DNA from: Parasitella parasitica
Lineage: Eukaryota > Mucoromycota > Mucoromycetes > Mucorales > Mucoraceae
DNA length: 64,000 nt
NCBI GenBank assembly: GCA_025201805.1
Contig: MU619246.1
Coordinates: forward strand, 87,519 to 151,518
Direction of reading: 5' to 3'
The position numbers were made by a program, and so were the translations under genes. The notes below the pieces were generated by a model. That model saw only the letters and a list, made by a program, of their open reading frames with translations. It searched no databases and was not told the DNA's origin. How positions within the stretch are numbered: position 1 is the first letter of the stretch; each line of letters opens with the position of its first letter. Shown piece by piece: positions 45,860 through 47,337 of this stretch.

Positions 45860-47337
45860 ATGGAAACAATTCGAGTCGTTACAAATGGAATACTGTGTAC
45901 ATTAGGTTTATGGGGCCATACAACATTGACTGTGGCTGTTCAACTGCTTTCTGTCTTTATTTGGCCGTTTTCAAAGAAATTGTATTACGCCTTCCATGCA
46001 CATATAATGCGACAATGGGCTCAAAATCTCTTCCAGATCATGAAGACATTTGCACCGGGAGAGTTGATTATTACATTTGACGATAGTATCGCGGAAGACA
46101 TGGACGATGACAGTAGCAATGAAGCATTGGAACAGCTATTAACTCGCAACATGAAGGGTCAGGTTACCGGAATATCTTTTCCCGATAGATTAATTATGAT
46201 ATCAAATCACCAGGTGAAAAATAAAAAGACAACACGAACCTTGAAAACATTTATTCATAGTCGATCATTTAACAGATTTATGCGGATTGGATATATATTT
46301 GGTTCTTGGCTTATTTATCAAAGGCACACGGCGCATTAAAGATTATGCTCAAACATAGTTTGAGCCAAGTACCAATTTATGGCATGTAAGTCATTTTTGT
46401 GCGATTATAGAATCTTTTAAAAGACTAAGCATGTTTAATTTCGAATTAGGGTAAACTATTTCTCCTTTTTTTGATCTAATTTCACCGAATCAAGCTTTTT
46501 TTTCTTTTTTTAATACGCTGTTTTTTAGGGTATGAAATTCTTTGAATTTATCTTTTTAAAACGAAAACTGGAGCATGATAAAGATAACATTGTGAAAAAC
46601 CTTGAAACTGCCAAAAAGAGAGGAAGACCCTTGTGGTTGGTTTTATTCCCAGAAGGCACAGGTATTTTTAGCAATACAATGGGATCGGTCGAATTCTATT
46701 AACCGCCCCATGTGTACAATAGTCATTTCAGACGATACACGCCAAAAATCGAAAGAATTCGCTGCCAAGCTTCACATGGTATTTCTTGGTTCGAAAAGCA
46801 TGATATTTTGTGTGATACTAACTTCTGTACTTTGCGTAGGATGATTACAAATTTACTCTTTTACCAAGAACCACTGGATTGTTGTTATGTAAGCAGACAT
46901 TAGGTGACAGCGTCGAATGGCTTTATGATCTTACTGTTGGCTATCCCGGCATTGAACCTGGACAAAATCCTGAAGATGTCATGACCATGAAACGTATCTT
47001 TTGCGAAGGGAATGGCCCTCATGAAATTCACATTTACATGCGCCGCTATCGTCTCAGAGACTTACCAACCGACACTGAACAGTTTACGCACTGGTTGCTA
47101 AATCGTTGGACTGAAAAGGATAAGCGACTTGTTTACTTTAACGAGCATGGTAAATTCCTTGAAGAGAGTGACATAGAAACTGATCGCATATATAACGGAA
47201 GAACTGTCAAAATCCCAATTCAGTTGCAGAACACTTTGAGAGAGTGCTATGGTTATTGGCTTTACTTGATCATTTACGTACCTGTTATCTACGCTATTTT
47301 GCATTTTCTGCGCCTTGCATATACAACCATAGTATAA
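45860..47337 (+). CDS. PlsC-type lysophospholipid acyltransferase (LCLAT1/AGPAT-like, yeast Cst26/Psi1-like)
   Basis: Integral membrane enzyme that acylates lysophospholipids (lysophosphatidic acid or lysophosphatidylinositol; exact substrate not determinable). Exons 45860-46213, 46276-46385, 46450 (one base), 46529-46661, 46723-46778, 46840-47337; 383 aa. Catalytic HX4D is created across intron 1 (NHQ/IYADW), and block III FPEGT ends exon 4. Other family marks: LKHSLSQVPIYG then MGMKFFEFIFLKR, TRQKSKEFAA, LLPRTTGLLLC. An N-terminal and two C-terminal hydrophobic segments suggest ER membrane insertion. The ATG codon at the YG-M-GMKF junction can be completed only by a single G between two well-formed introns, and the total then is exactly 384 codons. 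Confidence 0.9.

Follow-up and report, generated by a model that had tools for sequence, protein, structure and literature searches.

A one-nucleotide exon in a Parasitella parasitica acyltransferase gene is probably genuine and ancient, and often escapes gene-finding software

The window analysed here, i.e. the whole 64,000-nucleotide stretch on contig C10 of the 30.7-Mb, 232-contig assembly of Parasitella parasitica (a member of the Mucorales), raises the question of how a predicted acyltransferase gene carries its reading frame across codon 155. Exon 2 ends with ATT TAT GGC AT at 46385, and 143 bases separate it from the next conserved exon, which opens with GGT ATG AAA TTC at 46529. The sequence-only reading had given these two ends and stated that joining them directly leaves the frame, and translation confirms it, since the direct join without G46450 yields YGMV followed by a stop.

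The 143 bases consist of a 64-nt intron, a single G at 46450 and a 78-nt intron, that is, two complete canonical introns with one base between them (46386-46528), and this G is needed for the conserved reading frame. With it, the coding sequence starting at the ATG at 45860 comprises 1152 nt, or 384 codons including the stop, and the 383 amino acids encoded are identical at every residue to GenBank P0001 ('acyltransferase-domain-containing protein', Parasitella parasitica). The earlier proposal of a one-nucleotide exon between a GTAAGT...TTAG and a GTAAAC intron, in a gene of 384 codons, is borne out to the base, and we hold with high confidence that G46450 is such an exon, flanked by two GT-AG introns of normal length and splitting codon 155 as AT/G before GGT. 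Regarding the branch sites proposed at the same time, CTAAG is kept as a candidate in intron A, but CTAAT in intron B lies 49 nt from the acceptor, and TTAAT is likelier (Table 1).

Table 1. Exons and introns of the acyltransferase gene in the window (C10) and the corresponding junction of its paralogue on contig C7.
Feature	Coordinates	Strand	Description
Exon 1	45860..46213	+	from ATG; ends NHQ, phase 0; translation, PF01553 match, equals P0001
Intron 1	46214..46275	+	62 nt, GTGAAA...AACAG
Exon 2	46276..46385	+	ends GGC AT, phase 2; intended frame best of three
Intron A	46386..46449	+	64 nt, GTAAGT...TTAG; branch candidates CTAAG or TTAAT
One-nucleotide exon G	46450..46450	+	third base of ATG (Met155) in YG-M-GM; protein equals P0001; C7 paralogue likewise
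Intron B	46451..46528	+	78 nt, GTAAAC...TTTTTTAG; TTAAT 15 nt from acceptor
Next exon	46529..46661	+	GGT ATG AAA TTC..., phase 0 start, encodes GMKFFEFIFLKR
Intron after PEGT	46662..46722	+	61 nt
Exon between last two introns	46723..46778	+	translation and frame score
Last intron	46779..46839	+	61 nt, CTAACT branch
Last exon	46840..47337	+	Acyltransf_C domain (PF16076); TAA at end
C7 intron A'	C7:141469-141527		59 nt, GTAAGT...CCTAG; preceded by GGA CA
C7 one-nucleotide exon G	C7:141528		same codon as in C10 gene
C7 intron B'	C7:141529-141588		60 nt, GTAATG...TTTAG; then GGC ATG AGA

The product is predicted to be a PlsC-type (AGPAT/LPGAT-like) glycerolipid acyltransferase, with matches to PF01553 (66.2 bits, cut-off 23) and PF16076 (57.6 bits, cut-off 26.5) that both exceed the curated Pfam cut-offs; searching the PDB by sequence returned no solved structure matching it at E <= 0.001. 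Coding statistics rank the intended frame best of three in all five full-size exons, with 7.1 bits against -38.2 and -20.4 for the other two frames in the exon at 46529..46661, hence the frames on both sides of the junction are secure.

Between 46300 and 46640, 24 single GT-AG or GC-AG introns are in frame and free of stops, and none of them keeps both YG and GMKFFEFIF; a lone canonical intron using a different donor or acceptor was rejected, since conserved residues are deleted by all 24. Intron retention was rejected too, stops being present in each of the three retention options tested. As these 24 introns do keep the frame, and a comparable skip occurs in 12 of the 55 Mucoromycotina models among the matches listed, a shorter protein made through a longer in-frame intron (e.g. 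46386-46620) has to be weighed, together with a pseudogene. We give next to no weight to either, considering that 20 of the 24 introns delete GMKFFEFIFLKR and the other four delete residues before it, that conservation of the deleted block extends from chytrids to Mucorales, and that the junction at codon 155 is the only frame break in the 383 codons. Blocks of the GMKFFEFIFLKR type (46529-46564 in Parasitella) lie 3' of NHxxxxD, and their absence would presumably remove part of the active site.

A transcript-like sequence from Rhizopus bears on the same block. P0013 (310 aa) comes from a source labelled 'lgn', which we take to denote assembled public sequencing reads, and whose longest contig has 1034 bases; its frame fills about 930 of these at most 1034 bases, too many for the usual introns to fit in as well. 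Compared with P0014, the annotated Rhizopus arrhizus protein, it agrees at 277 of 279 aligned residues, yet the 12 residues of GMKFFEFIFLKR are present in P0013 and absent from P0014, and the PF01553 score is 61 bits with them against 35 bits without, a further point against the shorter protein. P0013 diverges from P0014 over roughly its final eight residues, showing that the contig is not flawless. At the protein level, P0013 fits a spliced RNA that joins YGT to GMKFF, with annotation P0014 skipping ahead to keep the frame.

To judge the splice sites we used as reference 137 introns predicted by a self-trained gene model (63 genes) on C10:1-261518, of which 31,560 bases are N, with no annotation used; this set superseded an earlier intron survey by flanking ORFs, with 11 usable introns. 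Introns A and B are unremarkable for this genome in length and scores, the median length being 60 nt and the percentiles 81 (donor) and 74 (acceptor) for A and 23 and 66 for B. The inner donors score below average in both paralogues (23rd percentile for B, 22nd for B'), and A' has a weak acceptor (12th). If the two parts have to be at least 48 nt each, the chance that a random intron-like 143-mer contains an AG-N-GT is 0.12 regardless of site quality, and 0.0058 if both sites also have to reach the 5th percentile; the corresponding qualifying chance for the C7 paralogue (120 nt) is 0.0033, and the joint chance for the two genes, if independent, is about 2e-5.

Of the genes elsewhere in the genome, this paralogue on C7 (GenBank P0032) is the most closely related, its product being 46% identical to that of the C10 gene. 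AG/G/GT recurs in it at the same codon, which, together with the identity to P0001, supports the reading with the micro-exon: with the G, the C7 translation matches P0032 through residue 202 (the following intron being left in), and without it only through residue 158. The introns themselves have no sequence similarity between the two genes (A-A' z 0.2, B-B' z 0.9), and the idea that B arose as a tandem copy of A was rejected, as no similarity was found within either gene (A-B z 0.5; A'-B' z -1.1). On C41 lies a third, distantly related paralogue, in which FFGWGMW is read through with no intron at the junction, thus confirming one codon between the two glycines and serving as a natural length marker. 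After FFGWGMW the frame of this gene (C41:203000-205800, minus strand) continues with VK and then meets a stop, and the start of an intron is probable at about this point, near but not at the junction position.

A maximum-likelihood tree built from 55 of the collected homologues separates the C10 and C7 genes by a duplication, both copies of which are also found in Rhizopus microsporus and Mucor. Genes of Rhizopus, Cunninghamella and Absidia group on the C10 side (20 sequences, support 97/85), in a clade that does not include the C7-side one (7 sequences, support 100/99); some deeper forks are weak (86/60, 86/89). Since two paralogues across the duplication have the same exon arrangement, it would, most simply, predate the split of several Mucorales families. 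We infer that the two Mucorales paralogues inherited it from their common ancestor, and that an early ancestor of the Mucoromycota probably had it too. An exon of one nucleotide kept in two such diverged paralogues would show that intron-definition splicing can maintain it for a very long time.

Two further explanations were weighed. One extra G would make a single real intron of about 143 nt work, the missing base being then an assembly error; this we regard as extremely improbable, given that the same very unlikely error would be needed at the same codon on another contig, that an intron of 143 nt is at the 97th length percentile, and that the gene model of P0003 (same species name, 89% identical) likewise dodges the junction. 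The other explanation is one non-canonical intron, either TA...AG at 46387-46528, with the donor G belonging to exon 2, or GT...TA at 46386-46527, with the acceptor G belonging to the next exon. Such a single TA-AG or GT-TA intron of 142 nt (119 nt in the paralogue) gives the same mRNA in both paralogues, because the G has an AG before it and a GT after it; all three readings thus end in one and the same mature mRNA in either gene, RNA-seq or RT-PCR of it, the check suggested earlier, cannot separate them, and RNA-seq alone is no proof of an AG/G/GT exon. All three likewise require a G-ending codon at residue 155, which is possible in 34 of 35 intact homologues, a weak test that 6 of 98 comparably variable columns (including 155) pass. 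We nevertheless consider a non-canonical intron quite improbable and prefer two canonical introns, since the alternatives need a very rare non-GT-AG class in both paralogues and leave the internal sites unexplained, the internal AG/G/GT and near-modal lengths in both genes becoming a coincidence (0.0058 and 0.0033). Moreover, 9 of the 12 insertions in the models of relatives, among the matches listed, resemble translated phase-0 donors inside the region, their codons being inferred (see below).

Concerning the way in which the one-nucleotide exon is spliced, stepwise splicing had been put forward as its alternative; the two are the same structure, seen as product and as process. An exon of this size would hardly be recognisable across the exon by the spliceosome, and introns A and B would be taken out consecutively, by intron definition. 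The first donors are strong in both genes (10.2 and 9.7 bits) and the second ones weaker (6.4 and 6.2), which suggests that intron A, with its GTAAGT donor, is most likely removed first, the reverse order being less likely. Once A is removed, ATG would stand before the already complete GTAAAC donor of B, which would then be removed. The change in donor score upon removal of the first intron (B from 6.39 to 5.92 bits, B' from 6.20 to 7.24) gives no consistent clue to the order. Constitutive use of the G46450 exon is presumed in this scheme.

How far the arrangement reaches beyond Parasitella was approached through public gene models, a search of the contig sets viral_contigs and genome_contigs having brought up no relative. 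At least 208 homologues were collected, one set being the best 120 of 1072, and the 163 with an organism name and a fungal group were classified; 45, mostly nameless, were dropped. A model was counted as abnormal if it shows a skip, an insertion or a start at the junction, and three visibly wrong joins (P0008, P0084, P0136) were counted as normal. Among the matches listed, abnormal models make up 24/55 in Mucoromycotina, 19/21 in Mortierellomycotina, 11/15 in Glomeromycotina and 2/3 in Basidiobolus, i.e. 56/94 in total, with 38/94 reading through normally, as compared with 1/69 in the outgroups (15 chytrids, 49 Dikarya, 5 other zoopagomycetes). At control positions, which need not be introns in every species, the same 94 models are abnormal in 3 (PEGT/V), 7 (HM/DD) and 24 cases (intron 1), the last control not being clean, as truncated models inflate the intron 1 and junction counts alike.

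The way in which the models fail is informative as well. Nine of the 12 insertions among the matches listed begin with VN, VS, VC or VR straight after a W or L codon, and are apparently translated GTAAAT, GTAAGT, GTATGT and GTACGT donors in phase 0, with the codons deduced from protein; the three others (P0105, P0106, P0127) start differently. Outside the Mucorales, insertions at the same junction read VNFPLLQ, VNIYSMLYFARLLQ and VC in P0050, P0051 (both Basidiobolus) and P0128 (Bifiguratus). In the Mortierellomycotina models P0129, P0133 and P0134, FGW is followed immediately by FFDFI; such a join would call for a phase-2 donor and an AG/G acceptor inside ATG AGG TTC, again judging codons from protein. 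The combination of a phase-2 donor with a phase-0 acceptor, one base short, is exactly the Parasitella pattern. Residues are missing at the junction in 19/55 Mucoromycotina and 13/21 Mortierellomycotina models among the matches listed, and the GMKFFEFIFLKR-type block is absent from 12 of those 19. Hence, many public records of this acyltransferase are probably wrong.

These model breaks across Mucoromycota and Basidiobolus, which are annotation errors, suggest that the exon is older than the Mucorales paralogue split. We lean slightly towards an origin ancestral to the Mucoromycota (Mucoro-, Mortierello- and Glomeromycotina), perhaps shared with Basidiobolus, in which case the exon would have survived duplication and complete turnover of its flanking introns and would be among the oldest known. 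If so, one-nucleotide exons can be evolutionarily stable and are systematically hidden by gene-prediction software. P0022 from Gongronella butleri has an F at the split codon, and no G-ending codon encodes F, so the one-nucleotide exon has probably been lost or altered in that gene.

Single-base exons had been called extremely rare, and they are rare, but precedents exist, one of them in a fungus (PMC12940212). A search of titles and abstract starts of open-licence papers gave the nuclear cases plant APC11 and VPS55 and Fusarium CYP621A, and no nuclear one-nucleotide exon in Mucoromycota; the Parasitella exon is a new, probably deeply conserved case of a known phenomenon. According to extracts of the respective papers, CYP621A is described as the first fungal one (Nelson and Syed 2026, PMC12940212) and resembles the Parasitella gene in being a fungal nuclear gene with a one-nucleotide G exon in AGGGT, flanked by two short introns and lying inside a conserved motif, in that the alternative single intron (139 nt in CYP621A) exceeds twice the median, and in having an intronless homologue as length marker. 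It differs in gene family and phylum, and its join is backed by 18 SRA reads, whereas that of Parasitella is deduced from genomic DNA and protein identity; unlike CYP621A, the Parasitella exon is common to two old paralogues and perhaps to much of a phylum. To judge from the AGGGT described in PMC12940212, we suggest that CYP621A may carry the same mRNA ambiguity.

In Arabidopsis APC11, as far as the extract of Guo and Liu (2015, PMC4674806) goes, a one-nucleotide exon is likewise required for the frame and constitutive, sequential splicing is proposed, but the base is an A and the exon was proven by base swaps in protoplasts, whereas the Parasitella base is an ambiguous G. The land-plant APC11 and VPS55 exons are, like the Parasitella one, long conserved and missing from annotations, and differ in being from plants and supported by RNA-seq and RT-PCR; the annotated VPS55 protein is shorter without the exon, which one VPS55 clade lacks (extract of PMC8831610). 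Excerpts also report a placozoan mitochondrial cox1 case (PMC5436844) and contain the phrase 'single-nucleotide exon' in two papers on fungal mitochondrial introns (PMC12308204, PMC8208691). Stwintrons (spliceosomal twin introns), as outlined in parts of PMC6616335 and PMC5639578, are alike in having two U2 introns almost at one place that are removed consecutively, but there the inner intron interrupts a splice element, whereas in Parasitella all donors and acceptors are intact with one exonic base between. A [D1,2] stwintron was rejected, the base before intron A being T in C10 and A in C7, and the B donor being uninterrupted.

Finally, although the gene model was permitted exons of 1, 2, 4 or 5 nt, it placed none in the 261,518 bases of C10; the de novo gene finder also failed to model the acyltransferase gene, owing to its weak codon bias, so this hunt is uninformative on frequency. 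Nine of the 137 predicted C10 introns are at least 120 nt long and might be two introns merged with a micro-exon.
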